Below, piece by piece: positions 20,935 through 32,138 of a stretch of DNA of 64,000 bases. The DNA lies in the NCBI RefSeq assembly GCF_008727875.1, contig NZ_VTWS01000005.1:496001-560000 (forward strand), in the 5' to 3' direction. A program made the translations under genes and the position numbers. Below the pieces are notes generated by a model. The model worked only from the letters and a program-made list of their open reading frames with translations. It was not told the DNA's origin and ran no database searches. The DNA is from Larkinella humicola. GTDB taxonomy: Bacteria > Bacteroidota > Bacteroidia > Cytophagales > Spirosomataceae. Each line of letters begins with the position of its first letter. The stretch's first letter is position 1.

Positions 20935-21942
20935 ATGGCAGATCAGCCCAGCAACTGGCTTAATAAATTAGGGAATCTCCTGGTGCCGTCCTCCAGTGAG
21001 CCCAAAACCAATCCGGTTGCTACCGTTTCCAATACCCGCATTCTGAACGAACTGGTGGCGTCTTTTCAGGACTCCGTACCGCGGGAATCCGTCGGAAAAA
21101 GCATGCTTTTCAATGCGCATTTTTTGATCATTCTGCATCCCGACACCTACGAAGCGCGCCAGAATGCGTTTCCGGTCATTGTCAACGAAGCGGTGAATGC
21201 CTTTACGACTTTCATTGAGTCCGAAAAGTCGAACTACGAACGCGTGGTGCCGGTGGCCGCCAACTGGTTCTTCAAGTTTGGGGGCGGGCGTGAATTTGGC
21301 GGAGAACCGGTCACGCCAACGGATGTCAAAGTGGTGGGTGCCCTGACCGGTATTTTACCCGGAAACGACCCGGCGCAATCACCGGACCGGATTCACGTTA
21401 CACGCCGGGTCAAACAGACCAACCGGTTTGAGAAAGTGGACATCGACCCGAACACCTTCCAGCACATCGACTTTCGGGAACCCGGTGCGTTTGTCGTGAA
21501 GTTTACGTTTTCGACACCGGCACCAACCTCCCCACGACCACCGGTCGGAGCCCCCGCGACCCGCCATGCGCCGGGATTGCCCCGCAGCCTGGGTGCCGGA
21601 CTGGCTCAGATCAACCATTACATTGCGGAATTGAACAAGGAGGATTCGTACCTGATGCGCGACCGCGAAATCGTGGTGGCGCGAAAAGAGCCGGATAACC
21701 AGCATTTTCCCAACTACCTTTTGCTCGAATCGGCTTACGTCTCGAACCCCCACGCCCGGATTCGCTACAACGACGAAATCCGGGGCTTCCAGATTGCGTC
21801 GTTCAGCCGCAACGAAACCCGGGTGAACGAACAGCTTATTCCGCGCAGCGAACCCGCCAGTCCGCAGTGGTACGCGCTGCCGGATCAGGCTCAGATTCTG
21901 CTCAATAGCATGGTCACCCTAACCTTTCAACGCCATGATTGA
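20935..21942 (+). CDS. FHA-like protein with an N-terminal domain, first gene of the kinase/SEDS cluster
   Basis: The 335-residue protein has no signal peptide or membrane helix. Residues 1-180 form an unrecognised domain (MLFNAHFLIILHPDTYEARQ and later). A Pro-rich linker (about 185-215) leads to a C-terminal region (about 235-335) that reads as a degenerate FHA domain: REIVVARK for the first strands, SNPHARIRY for the phosphopeptide-contact SxxH, ETRVNEQLI for the GTxVNg strand and QILLNSMVTLTFQ for the last strands. FHA domains bind phosphothreonine. By position it resembles actinobacterial FhaA, which also has an N-terminal domain plus FHA. It overlaps the micropeptide gene by 8 bases. 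Confidence 0.65.
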   Translation: MADQPSNWLNKLGNLLVPSSSEPKTNPVATVSNTRILNELVASFQDSVPRESVGKSMLFNAHFLIILHPDTYEARQNAFPVIVNEAVNAFTTFIESEKSNYERVVPVAANWFFKFGGGREFGGEPVTPTDVKVVGALTGILPGNDPAQSPDRIHVTRRVKQTNRFEKVDIDPNTFQHIDFREPGAFVVKFTFSTPAPTSPRPPVGAPATRHAPGLPRSLGAGLAQINHYIAELNKEDSYLMRDREIVVARKEPDNQHFPNYLLLESAYVSNPHARIRYNDEIRGFQIASFSRNETRVNEQLIPRSEPASPQWYALPDQAQILLNSMVTLTFQRHD

Positions 21943-22018
21943 TGCGCTGTTTGTCGTGTTGCTGCTGCTGTTTGTACTCATCCTGGTGGTCCGGCATTTT
22001 CAGGATTTACCCCGATAA
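21935..22018 (+). CDS. 27-residue single-span membrane micropeptide
   Basis: This short frame starts at the ATG at 21935, inside the last codons of the FHA-like gene, and encodes 27 residues: MIDALFVV, a run of about 16 Leu/Val/Ile/Phe residues and a polar tail (RHFQDLPR). It predicts one membrane helix, N-terminus acidic and C-terminus basic. The 8-base overlap with the upstream stop is typical of translational coupling, and the PP2C gene starts 70 bases later. Micropeptides of this kind often bind and tune larger membrane proteins; here the kinases or the SEDS-PBP protein are candidates. It is too short for ordinary ORF calling and its expression is unproved. Confidence 0.5.
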   Translation: MIDALFVVLLLLFVLILVVRHFQDLPR

Positions 22019-22088
22019 AGCCAACAGAATGCGCTGCCAGCGGTTCTATTCAGTAGAACTGTTTATTTCGCCACGTTTCCCCAGTTAA

Positions 22089-23540
22089 ATGAATCCGTTT
22101 CTCATTGCCGGTCAGACCAATGTAGGCCAACGCCGAAAAAATAACCAGGATACGTTCATCTGCTCGACGATCTGGTCGGAATCCAGCGCGTTGCTGGCCG
22201 CCATCGATGGCGTGGGCGGTTATGCCGGGGGCGACCGGGCCGCGGCCATCGCGAAGGAATCGATCGAACAGTACATGGCGACGCCCAACGGCGATCCGTT
22301 GTCGATGCTGCGCGAAGCCGTCGTGTTTGCCAACAACCAGATCAATGCGCAGCGCGAGCAGAACCCCCAACTGGCGCAGATGTGTTGTGTCTTGACGACG
22401 GCGGTGGCTGATAGCCGTACCCAAAAACTGTATTTTGTGCATGTGGGCGACACCCGCCTGTACCGATACCGTCGGGGCATCCTCGAAAAACTCACCCACG
22501 ATCACTCGATGGTGGGCGTCCGGGAGGATGCCAACGAACTGACGGAAGCCGAAGCCATGCAACACCCGCGACGGAACGAAATCCTGCGCGAAGTGGGGTC
22601 GATGGCGCACCGGGTCGATGATCCGGATTTTCTGGAATCGGGCGAAACGGACTTTCTGCCGGGCGATTTGCTGCTGCTGTGCAGCGACGGTCTGACCGAT
22701 ATGATTACGCAGGCCCAGATTCAGAGCGTTCTGGATCAAAACCTTTCCCTTGAAAAACAGGTAACCGAGTTGATTGGGCTCGCCAATAAACAAGGCGGCA
22801 ACGACAACATTACCGTCGTTCTGGCCCAAAACACGACGCCAGCCACCCCGCAACCGGTGGTTGCCAACTCTACCGACCAGACGTTGCCGTTGAAACCGTC
22901 GTCAAAACCGGCTCCAGCCATTAGTCCAAAAACGACTTCGGGAAAGACCGAACCGGCCAAACGGAGCCTGACGGGTTTCTGGATTCTGATCGGGCTGGTG
23001 CTGGCGGGAACCATTGCGGGACTGGTTTGGTATCAAAACCAGGCTCCCAGCCAATCCGATCCGTTGGTTTCCGATAATCCACCGATGGTCAGCGATCCGG
23101 CTGATTCGACGCAGGCTATCGCGCCAACGGTTTCTCGCTTTGATTCATTGTTGCAGACGGCGTATCGCAGCACCGATCACCGGCTGATGCTGCCCGCTGA
23201 TACGGTTCGGCTCACGCAGCCCCTGCTGCTTACCGACTCGCTGCAAAGCATTGTGGGCGCAACCGGGCTGACGGTTTTCGTCCCTGCCGATACGGCACAG
23301 GCGCAGGTGGCATTACGGATCACCCGCTCGGGGCCGGTTGACCTTCAAAACCTGATCATTAGCGGTTTCAAGACCGGGATTGAGACCAGTCCCGGAACGA
23401 AGCTGCATCTGTCAAAGGTCTCTTTTCGCAACGTGAGCCAGCCCGTTCAGGCCGTTATCGGACAGGACACCTTCCGCGATGCCGTTATTGTGGTTACCTT
23501 GCAGAACCAGACTGATTCATCCAAAACACCCCCTCGCTGA
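22089..23540 (+). CDS. PP2C-type Ser/Thr phosphatase with a membrane helix and outer domain (PstP-like)
   Basis: The 483-residue protein begins with a PP2C phosphatase domain (1-250). Metal ligands are present: Asp21 in NNQD, Asp40-Gly41 in AIDGVGGYAGGD, Asp200 in LLLCSDGLTD and Asp239 in GGNDNITVV. A Pro/Lys/Ser linker (250-295), one membrane helix (about 297-315) and an extracytoplasmic region (320-483) follow, whose short repetitive strands (NLIISGFKTGIE, LHLSKVSFRNVSQ) look like a right-handed beta-helix. Actinobacterial PstP shares the phosphatase-helix-extracellular layout. It should reverse the action of the two kinases. Its stop overlaps the start of the first kinase gene by one base (TGATG). 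Confidence 0.9.
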   Translation: MNPFLIAGQTNVGQRRKNNQDTFICSTIWSESSALLAAIDGVGGYAGGDRAAAIAKESIEQYMATPNGDPLSMLREAVVFANNQINAQREQNPQLAQMCCVLTTAVADSRTQKLYFVHVGDTRLYRYRRGILEKLTHDHSMVGVREDANELTEAEAMQHPRRNEILREVGSMAHRVDDPDFLESGETDFLPGDLLLLCSDGLTDMITQAQIQSVLDQNLSLEKQVTELIGLANKQGGNDNITVVLAQNTTPATPQPVVANSTDQTLPLKPSSKPAPAISPKTTSGKTEPAKRSLTGFWILIGLVLAGTIAGLVWYQNQAPSQSDPLVSDNPPMVSDPADSTQAIAPTVSRFDSLLQTAYRSTDHRLMLPADTVRLTQPLLLTDSLQSIVGATGLTVFVPADTAQAQVALRITRSGPVDLQNLIISGFKTGIETSPGTKLHLSKVSFRNVSQPVQAVIGQDTFRDAVIVVTLQNQTDSSKTPPR

Positions 23541-25126
23541 TGTCTACCACCCGGTTTGATACACGGTTTCCCGGCTACGAAGTGCTGAGTGAATTGGGCC
23601 GCAGCAACGCCCGGATTCTCAAGGCGCGTCACCTGGCTACGGGCGATCTGGTGGCCATTAAGCACTTTGCCCTCAACACCGATGCCGAAACGCTCCGGCG
23701 GTTTCAGCGGGAATCGGCCATCATGACCAGCATCGCCCACCCCAACGTGGTCAAGGTTCGGGAGGTGCAACTGGAAGCCGAACTGCCCTACATCGTGATG
23801 GAACTGATTGAGGGCGGGAGCTTGAAACAGCTCATTACCGGTCAGCAACGCATCGACGTATCGACCACCATCCGGCTGGGGCTGCAAATGGCCAGTGCTT
23901 TCAAGGCGATTCATCCGCAGGGCATTATTCACCGGGATGTGAAACCGGAAAATATTCTTTTCCGCCCGCTGCCCAGTGGTGAACTGCATTTTTTGCTGAC
24001 CGATTTCGGGATTGCCCGGCTCCACGAACAATCAAGTACGCTGACGGGGCAATCGCTGATGACGTACGAATATGCGTCGCCCGAGCAGTTCAACGACCCG
24101 AAAGGCGTTGGGGCGGCCACGGATTATTATTCACTGGGCGTGGTTTTGTACGAATGCCTGCACGGAAGCGTCCCGTTTGCGCTGGACGATCATTCGGGCA
24201 TCGTGACGTTCATGAACAAGGTGCTGACCGAAGCGCCACCCGCCCTGACCGTGACCAGCCAGGACCAAACTCTGGGCCTGTTCGCGGAGCTTCTGGAGGG
24301 TTTATTGAAAAAGAAAGCCAGTGAGCGCCTGAACGATCCGGACGAATTGACGTGGTTGCTGAAACGGGCCGAACTGAATTATTTGCAGGCCGGTCGGATC
24401 AGCCCTAAAACCGCCCCGATCACCCGGGTTACGCAGCAGAATCCGGCGAAGCCCGAGCCCGAAGCAGCCAGGGTTCCGGTACCCGATCCAGTCGTTGTAA
24501 AACCCGAACCGACTAAACCGCCCCAAAGCCAGTCGTCGGGCAGGAGTCTAAAACTGGCGGCTCTCGTGCTGGTGATTGTGGCAGGTGGAGCGGGGCTATA
24601 CTATGTCCTTACCGATTTTGGAGCCAAACCCATCGCCAGCGTGCTGACACCAAACGATACAACCCATACGCCAACCGGGGATCAGACTGCGGGGACGGAT
24701 GTGCCGGGTGATCAGGAACAAGAGGAAGACACGGTAAGCCTGCGGCTGGCGGAAGAAGCCCGGCGACGGGAACAACTCCGGGCGCAGGTTCTGGCGGCCG
24801 GGAAAACCCTGACCGTCGAGCCCCTCGATTTTAAAGTCGGTTTTTTCGGCGGAATCAAGAAAGCGCAGATTCAACTCAACAACCCCAGTGCCATTCCCTT
24901 TCCGGCGGTGGCGGTTCAGGTGAGCTATTTCAAGGAGAAAGGCGGTCTTTACAAAACCGAGAAGATGTTTTTTATGAATGTAAAGCCCAATTCATCTCCC
25001 GTTCGGATTGCTCCGGACAGTGACCGGGGCATCCGGATCAGTTGCAAAATCTTAAAGTATGATTTGCCCAGGAATCTGGACTCTCTGATGCAGGTGATGC
25101 CCGTCAAAACCGACTCGTTACTTTAA
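23540..25126 (+). CDS. Membrane Ser/Thr protein kinase 1 (PknB-like)
   Basis: The 528-residue protein has a Hanks-type kinase domain (about 13-275): Lys41 in VAIKHF, Glu58 in the C helix, HRDVKPENILF (Asp133, Lys135, Asn138), Asp155 in TDFGIAR, and Glu182 of ASPE. The Gly-rich loop is degenerate (LGRSNARIL instead of GxGxxG). A juxtamembrane linker (280-337), one membrane helix (about 338-357) and a 170-residue outer domain with a coiled-coil part (LRLAEEARRREQLRAQV) follow. It should phosphorylate Ser/Thr of cytoplasmic targets on an outside cue. It begins at the upstream PP2C stop (1-base overlap) and is 7 bases before kinase 2. Confidence 0.92.
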   Translation: MSTTRFDTRFPGYEVLSELGRSNARILKARHLATGDLVAIKHFALNTDAETLRRFQRESAIMTSIAHPNVVKVREVQLEAELPYIVMELIEGGSLKQLITGQQRIDVSTTIRLGLQMASAFKAIHPQGIIHRDVKPENILFRPLPSGELHFLLTDFGIARLHEQSSTLTGQSLMTYEYASPEQFNDPKGVGAATDYYSLGVVLYECLHGSVPFALDDHSGIVTFMNKVLTEAPPALTVTSQDQTLGLFAELLEGLLKKKASERLNDPDELTWLLKRAELNYLQAGRISPKTAPITRVTQQNPAKPEPEAARVPVPDPVVVKPEPTKPPQSQSSGRSLKLAALVLVIVAGGAGLYYVLTDFGAKPIASVLTPNDTTHTPTGDQTAGTDVPGDQEQEEDTVSLRLAEEARRREQLRAQVLAAGKTLTVEPLDFKVGFFGGIKKAQIQLNNPSAIPFPAVAVQVSYFKEKGGLYKTEKMFFMNVKPNSSPVRIAPDSDRGIRISCKILKYDLPRNLDSLMQVMPVKTDSLL

Positions 25127-25133
25127 TCGACTC

Positions 25134-26432
25134 ATGCCAACCGTAAGCGTCAATACGCATTTTCCGGGTTATGAAATTATCGGCGAACTGGGCCGCTCGA
25201 ACGCCCGCGTTCTGAAGGCCCGTCACCTGGCAACGGGTGATCTGGTGGCAATTAAACATTTTACCCTCAACACCGACGCCGAAACACTCCGGCGGTTTCG
25301 GCTCGAATCGCAGTTGATGACCGACATCCGTCACCCGAACGTGGTGCGCGTGCGGGAGGTTCAACTCGACATGCCCATGCCCTTCATCGTCATGGAATGG
25401 ATCGAGGGCGGCAACCTGCGGACACTCCTGGCGGAAAAAGGACATCTGGAAATACCAACGGTCATCCGGCTGGGGCTGCAAATGGCCGAAGCCTTCAAAG
25501 CGATTCACCCGCAGGGCATTATCCACCGCGACCTGAAACCGGAGAACATCCTTTTTCGACTCCTGCCCAGTGGTGAACTGCATTTTTTGCTGACGGATTT
25601 CGGCGTGGCCCGGCTGCGCGAACAGTCGCAAACTATGACGGGGCAATCGCTGATGACGTACGAATACGCGTCCCCCGAGCAGTTCGACAACCCCCGGGGC
25701 GTGGATGTATCCACGGATTACTATTCGCTGGGCGTGGTTCTGTACGAATGCCTGTCGGGCCGGGTGCCTTTTTCGATGGCCGATAACGCCGGTATCGCCA
25801 CCTTTATGGGGCAGGTGTTGCGCACGCCCCCGCCAGCGTTGGTGTTGCCAACGGGGCAGTTTATGCCGCCCAGCCTCAACACGCTCCTCGACTGGATGCT
25901 CACCAAAAACCCGGCGGAACGGCTGAGTGATGTCAACGAGCTGGTGTTACTGTTCGGTCAGGCGAATGTGGAACAGTTGCAGGTCGGCCGGTCGAACGAT
26001 CGCCGGGGGCCGGTGTCGTCGCGCACGCTGGTGGCCGCCGAACCGCTGCCACAACTGGAGCTACCCGAAGAGCCGGAAGAAGAACCCGCAAACCGCCTGA
26101 CGGGCTGGTACATCGGCCTGGGCATTCTGGTCGTTATTCTGATCGGTTTGGCGGTTTTTTATACGTACCAGGCCCGGGAAACCAACGTCAACACAACGGC
26201 GGCACCGGATTCGACGCGGATGGAAACCGACTCCAACGCGTCGGAAACACCAGGCGAGATGGTCGAGGATACCGCAACGACGCCGTCGGAGGGCTTTATC
26301 GAAAGCCCCACCGATTCGACCCGATCGGACAGCAGTCCCGCAACAACGACGGAACCCGAAATTCCGACCGTTCCGGCATCGCCACCGGATTCATCGAAAA
26401 CCGTCGTTGACACCACAAAGACGGGAAATTAA
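25134..26432 (+). CDS. Membrane Ser/Thr protein kinase 2 (PknA/PknB-like)
   Basis: The 432-residue kinase is a close paralogue of its upstream neighbour; residues 1-190 are nearly identical in position (Lys41, Asp133 in HRDLKPENILF, TDFGVARL, ASPEQF) and share the degenerate Gly loop LGRSNARVL. The two genes are clearly a tandem duplication. After the kinase domain come an acidic Pro-rich linker, one membrane helix (about 321-343, WYIGLGILVVILIGLAV) and a short Ser/Thr/Pro-rich outer tail, without the folded outer domain of kinase 1. It probably acts with kinase 1 on the SEDS-PBP protein and the FHA proteins. 16 bases separate it from the fusion gene. Confidence 0.92.
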   Translation: MPTVSVNTHFPGYEIIGELGRSNARVLKARHLATGDLVAIKHFTLNTDAETLRRFRLESQLMTDIRHPNVVRVREVQLDMPMPFIVMEWIEGGNLRTLLAEKGHLEIPTVIRLGLQMAEAFKAIHPQGIIHRDLKPENILFRLLPSGELHFLLTDFGVARLREQSQTMTGQSLMTYEYASPEQFDNPRGVDVSTDYYSLGVVLYECLSGRVPFSMADNAGIATFMGQVLRTPPPALVLPTGQFMPPSLNTLLDWMLTKNPAERLSDVNELVLLFGQANVEQLQVGRSNDRRGPVSSRTLVAAEPLPQLELPEEPEEEPANRLTGWYIGLGILVVILIGLAVFYTYQARETNVNTTAAPDSTRMETDSNASETPGEMVEDTATTPSEGFIESPTDSTRSDSSPATTTEPEIPTVPASPPDSSKTVVDTTKTGN

Positions 26433-26448
26433 CTACTCAACCCATTGC

Positions 26449-29400
26449 ATGAAAGGTACGTCTGTATCGTCTGGTCGTTTGTATTTACTGGGGGCATCCA
26501 TCCTGCTGCTGCTGCTGTTTGTGCGTTTGTACATCAACCTGCTTCCCGGTCTGAATCAGGCCAAAGAAGCCCTTGCCAGCGGGCAGGCCATCACGTTGCA
26601 GCCCGGTTTGAAATCCACACCGATCCAGCGTTTACTCAATAGCGGTAATTACTACAGCGATCCGGCCGACCGGACGCTGGTAGCCGATTCCCTGGCGGCT
26701 AAACTGGGCCTAAATGGCTCACCCGACAACCTGGGAGCCATCAACAAACGGCAGTTTTCGATCCGGGCGCCGGTGGCGTGGCGCAGCCGGATTGGCGGAG
26801 CGGATTTTCAGAACCGCCTGCAACTGTCCCGCCAGCAGATGGGCTTCGACTCCATTCTGTACGTCCGCGAACTCAGCAATCCGAAACCGTATCCGGCCAC
26901 CGTGAGCGCGGGGAGCGGAACAGCCACCATTTCGGGACAGGTTGCGCTTACGGAAACAGAGCAACCGGTGGCGAATGTGCTGGTGCAACTCAAACGCCAC
27001 CCCGCCACCGCCCAGCCCGACACGCTTCCCAACCAGTTTACCTACGCCCGCACCGATGCCGGGGGGCGGTTTTCGTTCACCGGCCTGACGACGGATCTTG
27101 GCTACAGCGTCGTCGCCCTGAAACCCGGTTTCGAGTTCGGCAGCCGCCGGGGAACGAGTCAACTGACCAGCGACCAATCCTATACCTTCACGGCCCGCCC
27201 CCACCAACTGCGGCTGATTGGCTCCGTCGTTTACGGGCAACTGAAGTCAGATCACGCTTTCCTTGTTCGCACGCCAACGGCATTTACCGTACAATTCTGG
27301 ACCATCGTCGGGCTGTTTATCGGGGCTTTCTGGGCCGTGCAGGGCGTCTGGATGCTCCGGCGGTTTTACCCCGATCCGTTGCTGCTGTCGGTTCTTATGT
27401 TGCTCACCGGTATTTCCGTCCTGACACTATTAGCCATTCAGGACCCGTTGCAGGACACCTTATACGCCTGGCAAACCTTGCAGGGCGTGGCGGCTGGGCT
27501 ATTCGGCTTGCTCATCGTATCCCAGATCAACATCGGCCGACTGTATGCCGACTGGCGGTTTGATTGGTTGTTTACGTTTTTTAACCGCTCTTCCGTCCGT
27601 TTGTCGGGCTGGACGTGGCTGGTACTCGCCCTCGGTCTGGCGGCTTTGACCCTGTTCATCGGTTCGGGGCCGGAAGGCAGTGGTGTTCGCGTGAACCTGT
27701 CGGTTTTGGGACTGACGTTTCAACCCAGCGAGATCACCAAGTACCTATTGTTGGTCTTCTTCGCCGGTTTTTTTGCTGCAAATGAACAACAGATCCGGCA
27801 ACTCCCGGATTTGCGCTGGCGGTTTGCGGTGAGCTTTGGCGCGCTGGCCGGTGCCGGTTTGCTCATGCTGCTTTACCTGCTGCTGGGCGATATGGGTCCC
27901 GCGCTGGTCGTCTGCTTCACATTTTTGCTGTTTTACAGCATCGCGCGCGGTAACCTGCCGCTGACACTTGCGACAGGAGTCGGCTACGGCATTGCCCTGT
28001 GGTTTTTGCCGGGCTGGATCGCCACCCTTCTCAGTCTGGTGGTGCTGATGGGGTACCTGTTCTGGCGGGGAGAGGCCCGCTCCAAAACCGCCCTGGGTTG
28101 GGCCGCTTTGTTGACGGAAGCGCCGGTTTTGCTGCTGATGGTGATCGCGATGTTTGCCTTTGGCGATCAGTTGCCCTTTGTGGGAAGCCGCCTGGCCGAC
28201 CGCAAAGCGATCTGGCTCAGTCCCTGGAACAACGACGTGTACGGCGGTGATCACCTGGCCCATAGTTTCTGGACACTGGCGTCGGGCGGCTGGACGGGAC
28301 AGGGTCTGGGCAAAGGTTTTGCGAATGCGATGCCAGCCGCCCACACCGACATGATTCTGCCCAGTGTAGGCGAAGAGTTGGGTGGATTAGGGGTCATTGC
28401 GGTATTTCTGCTGATGGGCCTTCTGCTGCACCGGACTTTTTTGCACGCCCGCCGGGCAGGTCAGCCGTTCAGCTTTTTTCTGGTCGCCGGTATTGCCATC
28501 GCAACGGGGGTGCAGTTTCTGATCATTGCGAGTGGCTCCATCGGGCTACTGCCCCTGACCGGTATCAGCGTGCCGTTTTTGAGTTACGGAAAAATTTCGC
28601 TCATCATCAACCTCATGGCGATGGGCGTTGTCTTCAGCGTGGCCCACCGACCCGGCCAGGCCGAACAGCGTGAATACCTGGAAAAAAACTACGATGTGGT
28701 GCTGATGGCCGGCATTGCCGGTTTTCTGCTGGGCGTAGCGGTTTTGATTGGCCGGTTGTTGCCGATTGTGGGCTGGCGCGGGAACGAGTATATTGTACGA
28801 CCCGCCCGGGTCATCACCCGCAACGGCGACCCCATTTACAGCTATAATCCCCGCATCGAGCGACTGACCCGCGTTCTGGCTTCGGGCACCCTTTACGACC
28901 GGAAAGGTCTGGTGCTGGCCACCAGTTCGCCGGAGCGGGTTACCCGGCAATTGTCCCGGCTGAAAAAAAGCGGTTTGGAACCGGATCAGGTGAAAGCCAT
29001 GAGCCAGAAACGGCTGCAACGGTATTATCCTTTCGGCGAACACCTGTTTTTCTGGACGGGTGATCTGAATACGCAACTGTTCTGGGGCCAAAGCAACGGG
29101 TATTATGCAGAAGCCACCCACTTCAGCGAGTTGCGCGGTTTCAACAGCCGCCCCCGCAAAACCAACCTCGTCGCCACCAGCTACCGGGCCGACCGCTTCA
29201 GCCCGACGGTCGAGCAAACGCGGACGCTGTCGGTTTACGATTACCGGGAACTGGCACCGGCTTTGCGGGCGGGGGTCGATAGTCGGGAGGTCGCGAATCG
29301 AAAATCCAAAAACCGGGATCTGTTCCTGAGCGTCGATGCGGATCTTCAGGTGGCGTTGCAAAAATCACTGGCCCAATCCGAATACCGGGACAAGCGGCTT

Positions 29401-30432
29401 TCGGTGGTGGTACTGGATGCGGCTTCGGGCGACGTTTTGGCGTCGGCCATGCACCCCTTACCCAATCTGAAAACCCCGGAAGCCATGCTGCTGTCGGACC
29501 GGGACCGGCTGCAACTGCCGTATCTGGTGACGGAACGGGATCTGGGCATGACCTTTCCAACCGCCCCCGGTTCGACCGCCAAAATTCTGACGGCGATGGC
29601 GGCTTTTAACAAACTGGGTTCGTCGGCGTCGGCAGTTCGGTATTCCATTTCGTGTCAGGAGATCATCCGGCGGGGTGAGCGGGAGTCGGAGCCCTGCGGG
29701 GAATCGGTCGATATGCGGAAGGCCATTGTTCGGTCGAGTAACGTCTATTTTATCCGGCTGGCAAACGACCAGGCCCTCGATAAAGAACTGGCCGATTTGT
29801 ATTTAGCCACGGGGATGAATGTCGATTACATTGGCGGCTACTCCTTTTCGGATACGCACACCGAGGCCGAGCGCGTTCAGATTCGACAGCACTGGCGCGA
29901 TTCTTCGTTTGTCGTTCGCCGGAAGCTCTACCAAAGTTTGCAGTATCCGAGACGGTACCGCGGTGAGTTTTCGGGACTGGCCTGGGGGCAGGGGCAACTG
30001 AGCACCACACCCGCAGCCCTGGCCCGGATGGCGGGAGCGATTGCCAACAAAGGCGTTTTGCAGCCCTCGCGCTATGTGGTGTCCAAAGCCGGCAAACCGC
30101 AGCCGATTGGAACCGGCAAATCCGTAGCCCGAAGTTCCGATTACGCCGGGCAGTTGAAGGAATTCATGATCGAACAGTCGAACCCGGCGGGGCGCGGCAA
30201 GATCAGCCTAGCGCGGGTGGCGGGCAAAACCGGTACGCCCGAACGGATTGTGCAGGGCGTTCAGGAGAATGACGGCTGGTACGTCTTTTTTGCACCCACA
30301 CCCGACGGCCGGTCGAATACCGTGGTGACGGTGCGCATCGAGTTGGGAAAATCCTCCGCCGATGCAGTCAACCTGGCCAACACCGTTGTGGCGCCCATTT
30401 TAAAACAACGCCGGTATCTGGGTAGTTTTTAA
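26449..30432 (+). CDS. SEDS glycan polymerase fused to class B penicillin-binding protein (RodA/FtsW-PBP2-like fusion)
   Basis: The 1327-residue protein opens with a membrane helix (about 8-30), an outer segment and a CnaB/carboxypeptidase-regulatory-like domain (about 165-265, ATISGQVALTETEQPVAN). A SEDS domain with about ten helices follows (about 290-760): FQPSE at 424-428, GDMGPALV, WLSPWNN, PAAHTDMILP with catalytic-type Asp634 and GEELGG. A linking helix leads to a class B PBP: pedestal from about 800 (YYPFGEH), transpeptidase motifs Ser1042 in STAK, Ser1096-Ser-Asn and Lys1260-Thr-Gly. All three active-site motifs are intact. The SEDS loop reads FLSYGKISL where FVSYGGSS is usual. It should make and crosslink glycan at the membrane. 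The ATG at 26449 is chosen over an upstream TTG. Confidence 0.93.
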   Translation: MKGTSVSSGRLYLLGASILLLLLFVRLYINLLPGLNQAKEALASGQAITLQPGLKSTPIQRLLNSGNYYSDPADRTLVADSLAAKLGLNGSPDNLGAINKRQFSIRAPVAWRSRIGGADFQNRLQLSRQQMGFDSILYVRELSNPKPYPATVSAGSGTATISGQVALTETEQPVANVLVQLKRHPATAQPDTLPNQFTYARTDAGGRFSFTGLTTDLGYSVVALKPGFEFGSRRGTSQLTSDQSYTFTARPHQLRLIGSVVYGQLKSDHAFLVRTPTAFTVQFWTIVGLFIGAFWAVQGVWMLRRFYPDPLLLSVLMLLTGISVLTLLAIQDPLQDTLYAWQTLQGVAAGLFGLLIVSQINIGRLYADWRFDWLFTFFNRSSVRLSGWTWLVLALGLAALTLFIGSGPEGSGVRVNLSVLGLTFQPSEITKYLLLVFFAGFFAANEQQIRQLPDLRWRFAVSFGALAGAGLLMLLYLLLGDMGPALVVCFTFLLFYSIARGNLPLTLATGVGYGIALWFLPGWIATLLSLVVLMGYLFWRGEARSKTALGWAALLTEAPVLLLMVIAMFAFGDQLPFVGSRLADRKAIWLSPWNNDVYGGDHLAHSFWTLASGGWTGQGLGKGFANAMPAAHTDMILPSVGEELGGLGVIAVFLLMGLLLHRTFLHARRAGQPFSFFLVAGIAIATGVQFLIIASGSIGLLPLTGISVPFLSYGKISLIINLMAMGVVFSVAHRPGQAEQREYLEKNYDVVLMAGIAGFLLGVAVLIGRLLPIVGWRGNEYIVRPARVITRNGDPIYSYNPRIERLTRVLASGTLYDRKGLVLATSSPERVTRQLSRLKKSGLEPDQVKAMSQKRLQRYYPFGEHLFFWTGDLNTQLFWGQSNGYYAEATHFSELRGFNSRPRKTNLVATSYRADRFSPTVEQTRTLSVYDYRELAPALRAGVDSREVANRKSKNRDLFLSVDADLQVALQKSLAQSEYRDKRLSVVVLDAASGDVLASAMHPLPNLKTPEAMLLSDRDRLQLPYLVTERDLGMTFPTAPGSTAKILTAMAAFNKLGSSASAVRYSISCQEIIRRGERESEPCGESVDMRKAIVRSSNVYFIRLANDQALDKELADLYLATGMNVDYIGGYSFSDTHTEAERVQIRQHWRDSSFVVRRKLYQSLQYPRRYRGEFSGLAWGQGQLSTTPAALARMAGAIANKGVLQPSRYVVSKAGKPQPIGTGKSVARSSDYAGQLKEFMIEQSNPAGRGKISLARVAGKTGTPERIVQGVQENDGWYVFFAPTPDGRSNTVVTVRIELGKSSADAVNLANTVVAPILKQRRYLGSF

Positions 30433-30451
30433 CCCCAAACCACCCTTTTTT

Positions 30452-31351
30452 ATGAGCATCCTGGACACGGTAAAGAAACTATTCGGATTTACACCGGCGG
30501 AACCGCCAGCCACTGCGGAACGTCCGGCGGAGGTGGTCAGGCGCGTCGAACCGGCCCCTGTTTTGCCCAAACCGGCTCCGTCCGGACCTCCCCCGGCTGC
30601 TCCGCGACGGGATCAGCTCATCCGGTTTGTGGTCAACAAACTGCGGGCTTATCAGAACGAGCCGGAAACCGCTCCCGTGGGACTCAAGCTTGTGATTTTT
30701 TGTGCAAGCCCGGAGGAAGAAGAACTCTACCGCGTGGTTTTATGGACCAATCAGCCGGGGAAGTTCCAGCGCGAATTAAACCGCCTGCTGGCCGACAATT
30801 ACATTGTTTTGCCCAAAAACTGGCGATTCGACTATGCACTTTTTGCGGATGAATGGCCCACTACGACCTACCGGGAAGGTAACCTGGGTTTGCTGGTCGA
30901 GGATCAGTCAAAACCCGACACCACCCCGCTGCTGGCCCGGATTGTGGCGCTGGTGGGGCAAACGGAGCAGGCAGAGTATCTCCTCGATTCGTCCCAGAAA
31001 GGCACGTTCTGCATCGGACGCGGGCATACCGCCCAAACCAACTCGGGCCGGGTGCGAACCAATGACATCGTGATTCTCAACGACGACGATGCCGGTTTTG
31101 ACCCGGACCAAGGTGCCGGAAATGGGGCGGTTAGCCGGGCGCATGCCACGATCCGCTATGATTCCGGGCAGAAACAATATTCCCTGCTGGTCGATCCGGG
31201 GGGGCTGCCCGCCAGCGGCAACAAGACGAAAATCATGCACCCCGACAATACCATCGAGCGGGCCGATATTGCCGGGATGGGCTACCCGCTTCAGCATGGC
31301 GATCAGATCGAACTGGGGGGCGAGGTGGTTCTGCTGTTCGAACTTCGGTAA
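30452..31351 (+). CDS. FHA domain protein closing the kinase/SEDS cluster
   Basis: The 299-residue protein has a Pro/Ala-rich N-terminal linker (about 15-55), an alpha/beta domain (about 60-165: LKLVIFCASPEEEELYRVV, LLADNYIVLP) and a C-terminal FHA domain (about 180-299). The FHA markers are FCIGRG (conserved Gly-Arg), the acidic/Asn-containing loop, AVSRAHATIRYD with Ser, Arg and His for phosphothreonine binding, and GDQIELGGEVVLLF at the end. It is cytoplasmic and probably binds a phosphorylated kinase or the SEDS-PBP protein. It follows the fusion gene by 19 bases and is the last gene of the cluster before moaD. Confidence 0.88.
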   Translation: MSILDTVKKLFGFTPAEPPATAERPAEVVRRVEPAPVLPKPAPSGPPPAAPRRDQLIRFVVNKLRAYQNEPETAPVGLKLVIFCASPEEEELYRVVLWTNQPGKFQRELNRLLADNYIVLPKNWRFDYALFADEWPTTTYREGNLGLLVEDQSKPDTTPLLARIVALVGQTEQAEYLLDSSQKGTFCIGRGHTAQTNSGRVRTNDIVILNDDDAGFDPDQGAGNGAVSRAHATIRYDSGQKQYSLLVDPGGLPASGNKTKIMHPDNTIERADIAGMGYPLQHGDQIELGGEVVLLFELR

Positions 31352-31363
31352 GCGGTTTCGCCA

Positions 31364-31395
31364 TTTCCAAACCCGCGTTCTGTTTTGTATCTTTG
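31364..31395 (+). promoter_or_regulatory. Candidate promoter of moaDE
   Basis: TTTC (31364-31367) and TATCTTTG (31388-31395) are 20 bases apart, matching the Bacteroidota consensus except for one base in the upstream box. The expected start is within a few bases of the moaD ATG at 31399, so the message would be leaderless or nearly so. Confidence 0.55.
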
Positions 31396-31398
31396 AGC

Positions 31399-31647
31399 AT
31401 GAGCAATCGAATTTCTGTTCAGCTTTTTGGCATCACCCGCGAGATTGTCGGCTCTTCGGCCCTCACGCTCGACTTGCCGCAACCCGGTCAGGTGGGCGAA
31501 TTACTGAACAATCTGAAAGAACACTATCCCGCGCTGAATGGCCTCCGGTCTTTGCTGGTGGCCGTCAACGGCGAATACGCTGAAGCGGATCAACCGATCC
31601 ATCCCAACGATGAAATCGCCCTCATCCCGCCCGTAAGCGGAGGCTGA
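31399..31647 (+). CDS. moaD: Molybdopterin synthase sulfur-carrier subunit
   Basis: The 82-residue protein has the beta-grasp fold pattern of MoaD and ends in Gly-Gly (PPVSGG), where the C-terminal thiocarboxylate forms. ISVQLFGITREIVG at the start and NDEIALIPPVSGG at the end are typical. It delivers sulphur for making the dithiolene of molybdopterin. The ATG at 31399 is preferred over a TTG two codons earlier. It lies next to moaE, with the inverted repeat H between. Other cofactor genes are not in the window. Confidence 0.92.
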   Translation: MSNRISVQLFGITREIVGSSALTLDLPQPGQVGELLNNLKEHYPALNGLRSLLVAVNGEYAEADQPIHPNDEIALIPPVSGG

Positions 31648-31653
31648 AAATAG

Positions 31654-31722
31654 AATGATGGGTTATGAACGATGAATGGGCTAGTGCCATCGTTCATAAC
31701 CCATCGTTCATAATCCATCATT
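31654..31722. repeat. Intergenic inverted repeat H (moaD/moaE)
   Basis: Outer arms 31654-31674 and 31702-31722 match at 20 of 21 positions; an alternative inner stem (31660-31673 with 31689-31702) is perfect over 14 bases. The two pairings compete for the word GGGTTATGAACGAT. It lies between two co-directional genes. Confidence 0.88.
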
Positions 31723-31727
31723 TTCTT

Positions 31728-32138
31728 ATGGTTTCGATTACGACTGATCCCATCGATATGAATGCGGCTTACCGATACGTTTCGACGGATTCGGCCGGGG
31801 CCATTACGTTTTTCTTCGGAACGGTGCGCGACAGCACCAACGAGCGCGCGGTCGAGCGGCTGGAATACGAAGCGTATGACCGCATGGCGCTAACCAAAAT
31901 GCAGGAGATTGCCGCCGAAGCCTGCCGACGCTGGGACGTCCGGAAGTACACGATCATTCACCGCAAAGGTAATCTGGCCATTGGTGACATCGCGGTTTTG
32001 ATTGCCGTGGCCACGCCCCACCGGGCCGACGCGTTCGATGCCTGCCGCTACCTCATCGACACCCTCAAACAACAGGTGCCCATCTGGAAAAAGGAAATTT
32101 TTGAAGACGGACAGGTTTGGGTCGATGCCCACCCCTAG
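31728..32138 (+). CDS. moaE: Molybdopterin synthase catalytic subunit
   Basis: The 136-residue protein has the MoaE pattern: GAITFFFGTVRD near residues 25-36, LEYEAYDRMA, HRKGNLAIGDIAVLIAV, HRADAFDACRYLID and VPIWKKEIFEDGQ with the active-site lysine. It converts cyclic pyranopterin monophosphate to molybdopterin using sulphur from MoaD, in a heterotetramer. The ATG at 31728 is chosen because the open frame upstream reads through repeat H, so the earlier start at 31665 would give a spurious leader. Confidence 0.93.
   Translation: MVSITTDPIDMNAAYRYVSTDSAGAITFFFGTVRDSTNERAVERLEYEAYDRMALTKMQEIAAEACRRWDVRKYTIIHRKGNLAIGDIAVLIAVATPHRADAFDACRYLIDTLKQQVPIWKKEIFEDGQVWVDAHP

Follow-up and report, generated by a model that had tools for sequence, protein, structure and literature searches.

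The DNA analysed here (the window) is a 64,000-nucleotide stretch of the 7.86 Mb genome of Larkinella humicola, and within it, at positions 20935-31351, lies a block of seven same-strand genes that probably represents, in Bacteroidota, a version of the FhaA-PstP-RodA-PbpA wall-control module and operates a third peptidoglycan synthase, in which a SEDS polymerase is fused to a class B penicillin-binding protein (PBP). In order on the + strand, the genes encode an FHA protein (FHA1), a micropeptide, a PP2C phosphatase, two Hanks kinases (STK1 and STK2), the SEDS-PBP fusion and a further FHA protein (FHA2). All seven open reading frames (ORFs) are open and co-directional, and a Pfam scan of the six larger genes returned FHA, PP2C_2, Pkinase, Pkinase, FTSW_RODA_SPOVE together with Transpeptidase in one ORF, and FHA, the FHA scores in the two end genes being 21.9 and 23.1 bits (cut-off 20.7). 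This confirms the gene set named in the original prediction, which had been made from the sequence alone. FHA1 and the micropeptide are spaced by -8 bases, the micropeptide and PP2C by 70, PP2C and STK1 by -1, STK1 and STK2 by 7, and the fusion and FHA2 by 19; the spacing of STK2 and the fusion is -26 bases if the latter begins at TTG 26407, and 16 from the likelier start, ATG 26449.

Surveyed across Bacteroidota, as the original prediction had proposed, the neighbour set proved to be a conserved system present in several families. The predicted gene order held in relatives: FHA1-PP2C-STK1-STK2-fusion-FHA2 is kept in 17 of 21 named Spirosomaceae loci (counted from tblastn maps, with L020 interrupted by apparent assembly frameshifts) and is reshuffled in distant Bacteroidota. 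Of the other four loci, L012 and L013 have one kinase, L014 has the fusion and FHA2 alone, and L024 is a contig fragment. The closest named fusions are those of Larkinella, at 98% identity, and a fusion is present in 36 of 150 family genomes, representing 7 of 36 genera (expectation value, E, <=1e-40), and in 15 of 395 phylum genomes (E<=1e-20). Seven loci belong to the same class outside the family, six of which (L052 and L054-L058) read STK-FHA1-PP2C-fusion-FHA2-STK, the seventh (L053) having both kinases downstream; L059 and L064 carry FHA1, PP2C, SEDS and PBP in that order, followed by a further FHA protein. In Spirosoma endophyticum (L014, L171) FHA1, the peptide, PP2C, STK1 and STK2 form an intact block about 78 kb from the fusion and FHA2 on the same contig. 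Two genomes (G530 and G539) have two fusions each, every one with its own PP2C within 3 kb, and G408, of the same genus and without a fusion, has diverged PP2Cs only (best 35% identity). That the arrangement is a lone curiosity is ruled out by this conservation within the family and across the phylum, and the locus is more than chance because its order is kept far beyond the genus and its micropeptide evolves as a protein.

The entire block was also found on a 136-kb plasmid of Spirosoma oryzicola (L066:6363-16919) that is typed as non-mobilizable; the block can therefore sit on a secondary replicon.

The fused synthase

The fusion (26407..30432; Pfam, residues and trees) is 1341 aa long from TTG, or 1327 aa from ATG 26449. 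Its hydropathy profile shows an N-terminal span and about 250 residues after it (together aa 20-292; 26464..27282), the spans of the SEDS polymerase part (aa 293-756; 27283..28674), and then a span ahead of the class B PBP, these last two making up aa 764-1341 (28696..30429). A CarboxypepD_reg-like match between the first span and the SEDS part (aa 174-248) scored 29 bits, under the cut-off of 32.3. In 20 aligned fusions SEDS residue D648 is invariant, as are S1056xxK1059, S1110xN1112 and K1274-T-G of the PBP part, and we take this aspartate and the SxxK, SxN and KTG motifs to be catalytic. A structure model of the fusion (aa 290-1341, 17 rows) had a mean predicted local distance difference test score (pLDDT) of 37 and was not used.

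The origin of the SEDS part was addressed by trees, all of them unrooted. In a 46-row tree, 14 fusions, five actinobacterial RodA proteins and a clostridial FHA-linked SEDS from Monoglobus were separated from 26 canonical FtsW/RodA sequences with support of 100/99. The grouping of the fusions with actinobacterial RodA alone had support of 83/57 with Monoglobus present, and of 100/99 in a 35-row tree whose only fusions were four from outside the class and which was built without Monoglobus. Approximately unbiased (AU) tests rejected a grouping of the fused SEDS with FtsW (p 0.0066) or RodA (p 0.0006) of Bacteroidota, and did so again in the 35-row tree. Among the five actinobacterial rows, Embleya was put in the FHA-locus RodA group by similarity only, and the label NonoFtsW records the search that found that row and not its tree position. 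The rows left out were a Listeria duplicate, six fusions that were almost identical (L009, L022, L055, L057, L062 and L063) and the RodA of Arthrobacter, the last because its ORF is in two pieces; beyond L007 and L015, the tree took in none of the 19 other named fusions. The PBP tree, built without the same six fusions, gave AU values of p 0.0002 for a grouping of the PBP half with Bacteroidota FtsI and p 0.012 for one with PBP2. Both the SEDS and the PBP trees unite the Bacteroidota fusions in a single group (100/100) that excludes the few actinobacterial sequences included.

In addition to the fusion, each of the six fusion-bearing genomes tested encodes two SEDS proteins that stand alone and other class B PBPs; judged from its sequence, the fusion adds a third SEDS to the housekeeping RodA and FtsW, which suggests a third SEDS lineage.

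Two unusual fusions were seen in other Bacteroidota. A high-GC genome encodes PP2C, SEDS and PBP as a single triple fusion of 1384 aa (L064, 7762-11916), and G131 has, besides an FHA-flanked fusion, a second, diverged one (L061:5165-9088) about 4 kb from a kinase gene.

Kinases, phosphatase, FHA proteins and micropeptide

By hydropathy, the PP2C phosphatase (22089..23540; Pfam, clade and hydropathy) and the kinases STK1 (23540..25126) and STK2 (25134..26432), both assigned from Pfam, tree and residues, have one predicted span each, at aa 295-313, aa 339-357 and aa 324-342, respectively, with a C-terminal part past the span in PP2C and a tail past it in STK1. Among phmmer-assigned homologues, kinase residues E58, H131, D133, K135, N138 and D155-F-G are conserved in at least 95% of both kinase sets (25 and 33 sequences) and K41 to that degree in the STK2 set only; likewise, D40-G, D121, D200-G and D239 of PP2C are conserved in at least 95% of 29 sequences. 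These are the usual catalytic residues of such enzymes.

STK1 and STK2 form one Spirosomaceae duplicate group (100/99) in the kinase tree, apart from PknA and PknB, and by this sequence evidence they are the products of a lineage-specific duplication inside that family. Pfam gave no PASTA match in either, and their scores on the PknB_PASTA model, 190 and 192 bits, fall short of its cut-off of 450. The duplicate group and the lack of a PASTA match speak against orthology with PknA and PknB, and the original prediction of a pknA/pknB pair is not supported. The window PP2C scored 190.7 bits on the Stp1/IreP model, under the cut-off of 230. Ten locus PP2Cs from across the phylum form one clade (100/100), in a tree that cannot relate them to PstP because of long branches; candidates L140, L150 and L153 dropped out for want of a hidden Markov model match, and two of the rows were identical.

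A Pkinase scan of 11 fusion-bearing genomes (E<=1e-15) found the locus kinases to be the sole matches in three (G099, G261 and G269); they account for 2 of 3 matches in G379 and G249, 2 of 4 in G371 and G033, and 2 of 5 in the window genome (G000), and total matches number 8 in G030, 13 in G179 and 17 in G131. Among five genomes without a fusion, three had no match, one had 1 and one had 7. The locus PP2C is the sole PF13672 match in G099 and G269, one of three in G000 and G030, and one of five in G179. Elsewhere in the window genome (C11:1518207-1519725), another kinase match adjoins another PP2C match.

FHA1 (335 aa; 20935..21942) was assigned from Pfam FHA, its alignment, the FhaA_N matches of its relatives, and FHA fold matches of a structure model (13 rows, mean pLDDT 47) from which these alone were taken, cautiously. 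It combines an FhaA-like N-terminal region with a C-terminal FHA domain whose phosphothreonine pocket is degenerate (VVARK, SNPHARI). In FHA2 (299 aa; 30452..31351) the G-R and S-R-x-H residues, which usually read phosphothreonine in FHA domains, are kept in at least 95% of 35 sequences. In FHA1 they are kept in L059, L060, L062 and L064 and missing in the window lineage and in L052-L054 and L056-L058. No span was predicted by hydropathy in either protein. FHA1 of L060 and L062 matches FhaA_N at 26.5 and 27.4 bits (cut-off 25), FHA1 of L059 and L064 falls below the cut-off, and no match was found in FHA1 of L052 or L058. Among the 395 phylum genomes, all 10 FhaA_N matches at E<0.01 are in five genomes, each of them fusion-bearing, and 5 of the 10 lie inside the locus; weaker matches (up to 0.05) occur in nine genomes without a fusion. 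Profile searches against the PDB with FHA1 N-terminal alignments gave nothing convincing. Oddly for a wall-synthesis locus, the downstream FHA protein of L059 (L059:11835-13205) is joined in one chain with a Swt1-like HEPN domain (Pfam, 90 bits).

An ORF of 27 codons (21935..22018) stands between FHA1 and PP2C; it overlaps FHA1 by 8 bases and encodes a 27-aa peptide with a single span. A peptide of 22-32 aa is present in all 34 FHA1-bearing loci counted (the window, 19 of 19 named and 14 of 14 further loci); it lies between FHA1 and the fusion in L060, L062 and L063, and occurs also in the plasmid copy L066, where it is unlisted among the annotated features, in the second copies of the two-fusion genomes (L172 and L173), and in the split block of S. 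endophyticum, with a reading frame that lacks an ATG start. For L059 and L064 it matters that the later scan used a lower hydrophobicity limit than the first. In a comparison of 18 sequences, 26 of the 27 codons vary at the third position and 10 at the second, and the ratio of non-synonymous to synonymous variation (pN/pS) is 0.24; by this pattern the micropeptide, reported here as new, evolves as a protein. An alignment of 11 peptides has no residue that is the same in all of them. As a control, 288 same-strand gaps were scanned, of which 30 have a hydrophobic short ORF, and 28 of these 30 adjoin FHA1, counts that are not independent because the loci are related. The peptide is short enough for gene callers to miss. 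Its actinobacterial counterpart in position is fhaB, whose protein begins with a hydrophobic stretch; descent of the micropeptide from fhaB is only a guess, because the sequences are too short to test it.

Origin and control of the module

The actinobacterial loci that we retrieved read fhaA-fhaB-pstP-rodA-pbpA-pknA-pknB. They share with the Bacteroidota block the SEDS subfamily, a membrane PP2C, a class B PBP, membrane Hanks kinases and FHA proteins, as well as an FhaA-type protein upstream in Bacteroidota relatives and the order fhaA-pstP-rodA-pbpA, which is mirrored in distant Bacteroidota. PP2C lies directly upstream of SEDS in L052-L058 and L059 and is fused to it in L064, whereas in the window the two kinases intervene. 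The block differs in that SEDS and PBP are fused and have gained an N-terminal span and domain, the kinases are lineage-specific duplicates with no PASTA match, an extra FHA protein (FHA2) follows the PBP, and the host has its own RodA and FtsW. We found no equivalent of FhaB, that is, a span with an FHA domain between fhaA and pstP; the place is taken by the 22-32-aa peptide, which has no FHA domain, and FHA2 is spanless. The original prediction had matched the parts to fhaA, pstP, pknA/pknB, rodA, pbpA and fhaB. The identification of fhaA is supported through the relatives' FHA1 proteins and that of rodA through the SEDS tree, and the gene order agrees, but fhaB is not supported; on pbpA the PBP tree speaks neither for nor against.

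Another related arrangement outside Bacteroidota is a clostridial trio in Monoglobus pectinilyticus (L067), in which an FHA gene stands beside adjacent SEDS and PBP genes; it was the second-ranked place, and the first outside Bacteroidota, in a search of a plasmid collection (E 1e-20, 39% covered). It differs in that SEDS and PBP are separate and the gene table of the 13.8-kb stretch, which may be incomplete, has 10 genes and neither a kinase nor a PP2C among them. The core synthases RodA-PBP2 and FtsW-FtsI share the SEDS aspartate and PBP motifs with the fusion but are encoded by separate genes and belong to separate SEDS groups. To our knowledge, phospho-control of wall synthesis through FhaA, PstP, RodA and PbpA is known mainly from actinobacteria. 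Linkage of pstP, rodA, pbpA and the kinase is described as conserved across Actinobacteria, and that of pknB and fhaA as occurring in some Firmicutes (PMC6554272); a review names PbpA as a PknB substrate and states that FhaA, after phosphorylation by PknB, negatively regulates the pseudokinase MviN (PMC3989709). The SEDS-PBP fusion is not new as such, since natural single-ORF fusions are mentioned, and a synthetic Escherichia coli RodA-PBP2 fusion polymerizes lipid II, according to PMC10449877; both resemble the present protein in uniting the two activities in one ORF, and the portion seen mentions no linked kinase, phosphatase or FHA system. Judged by titles and the beginnings of abstracts, and with most subscription papers outside the search, we found no paper on a kinase-PP2C-FHA-fusion system in Bacteroidota; no search was aimed at the micropeptide.

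A number of results weigh against a common origin with the actinobacterial locus or against a dedicated control module. In the SEDS tree the branches leading to the fusions and to actinobacterial RodA are rather long, and certain rows have an unusual composition. The PBP part matches penicillin-binding protein A best in the PDB (3lo7, E 6.6e-10) and MrdA almost as well (3.8e-9), and in the PBP tree this half stands apart, the AU value for a grouping with PbpA being p 0.127. The window FHA1 has no FhaA_N match in Pfam. Of the 15 phylum genomes with a fusion, 10 have no such match at E<=0.05, among them that of the window. A direct profile match of FHA1 with actinobacterial FhaA is weak (P 0.046), the link through intermediates reaching P 1e-4, or P 3.7e-4 with a probability of 36%. 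Whole-genome searches with the A2 alignment find FHA1 only at E 0.8 and 0.29, the former as the sole match in the window genome, and give no match in G099 or G269. Other kinases are present in 8 of the 11 fusion-bearing genomes scanned, and the 20 kb read for the FHA-flanked fusions of L060, L062 and L063 (genomes G013, G034 and G131) includes neither a PP2C nor a kinase.

Some of these results would fit convergence, in which the fusion arose within Bacteroidota from a native RodA or FtsW and a native PBP2 or FtsI, and kinases, PP2C and FHA proteins were gathered around it separately: the PBP half that the tree leaves apart and the missing FhaA_N match in the window, together with kinases that are lineage-specific duplicates and whose positions differ between families. 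Against it stand the AU rejections of a Bacteroidota RodA or FtsW origin for SEDS and of a Bacteroidota FtsI or PBP2 origin for PBP, the FhaA_N matches in relatives' FHA1 and the fhaA-pstP-rodA-pbpA order, and we consider convergence very unlikely. The original prediction had offered both shared origin and convergence as possibilities; with the SEDS tree and AU tests in hand, shared origin with the fhaA-pstP-rodA-pbpA locus is favoured, and the SEDS part and FHA1 (the latter as traced through its relatives), in particular, very probably descend from a common ancestor with their actinobacterial counterparts. A question of route remains compatible with a Bacteroidota version of that module: its horizontal transfer from Actinobacteria or other Gram-positives, in place of ancient inheritance, has a little short of an even chance. 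Transfer would suit the patchy distribution of the fusion, the plasmid-borne copy in S. oryzicola and the clostridial FHA-SEDS-PBP trio, but any such event would be old, because the fusions of Bacteroidota stand together in the trees, separate from the small sample of actinobacteria; its direction is beyond the reach of the outgroups used. A wider proposal, which we regard as rather doubtful, is that Actinobacteria, Clostridia and Bacteroidota share an ancient third SEDS-PBP class, built with FHA/PP2C/kinase control of its own, and that it became fused in Bacteroidota, where fhaB would have been reduced to, or replaced by, the 22-32-aa peptide as a subunit of the control complex.

As to function, the kinases, PP2C and FHA proteins might instead be a general envelope-stress unit with its main targets elsewhere, the synthase being merely co-regulated in transcription. 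Actinobacterial kinases have many targets, the signalling block of S. endophyticum lies far from its fusion, and the loci without a nearby PP2C or kinase would be expected; yet every fusion copy in both two-copy genomes has its own PP2C, and FHA2 adjoins the fusion even in the split locus, so that we think a general unit unlikely. By analogy with actinobacteria, it is reasonably likely that phosphorylation controls the fused synthase. Our working hypothesis for this control module is that the membrane kinases would sense the state of the envelope with tails that lie outside the cytoplasm and would phosphorylate a threonine on the cytoplasmic side of a partner encoded in the locus; FHA2 would dock there to switch or place the synthase, and the membrane PP2C would reset the phosphorylation. 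FHA1 may serve as a scaffold, its phospho-pocket having decayed in the window lineage, and the micropeptide may be a subunit in the membrane, either tethering FHA1 or touching the synthase. The block would give Gram-negative bacteria of environmental type a self-contained, fused version of this control; in some of their genomes no other Hanks kinase was found. It offers a simple system for asking which protein the kinases target and in what way FHA readers act as a switch on a SEDS-PBP synthase.

Downstream of FHA2, the window carries MoaD-like and MoaE genes (31393-32138); they follow FHA2 in 4 of the 21 named loci, all from Larkinella (L006, L007, L021 and L023).

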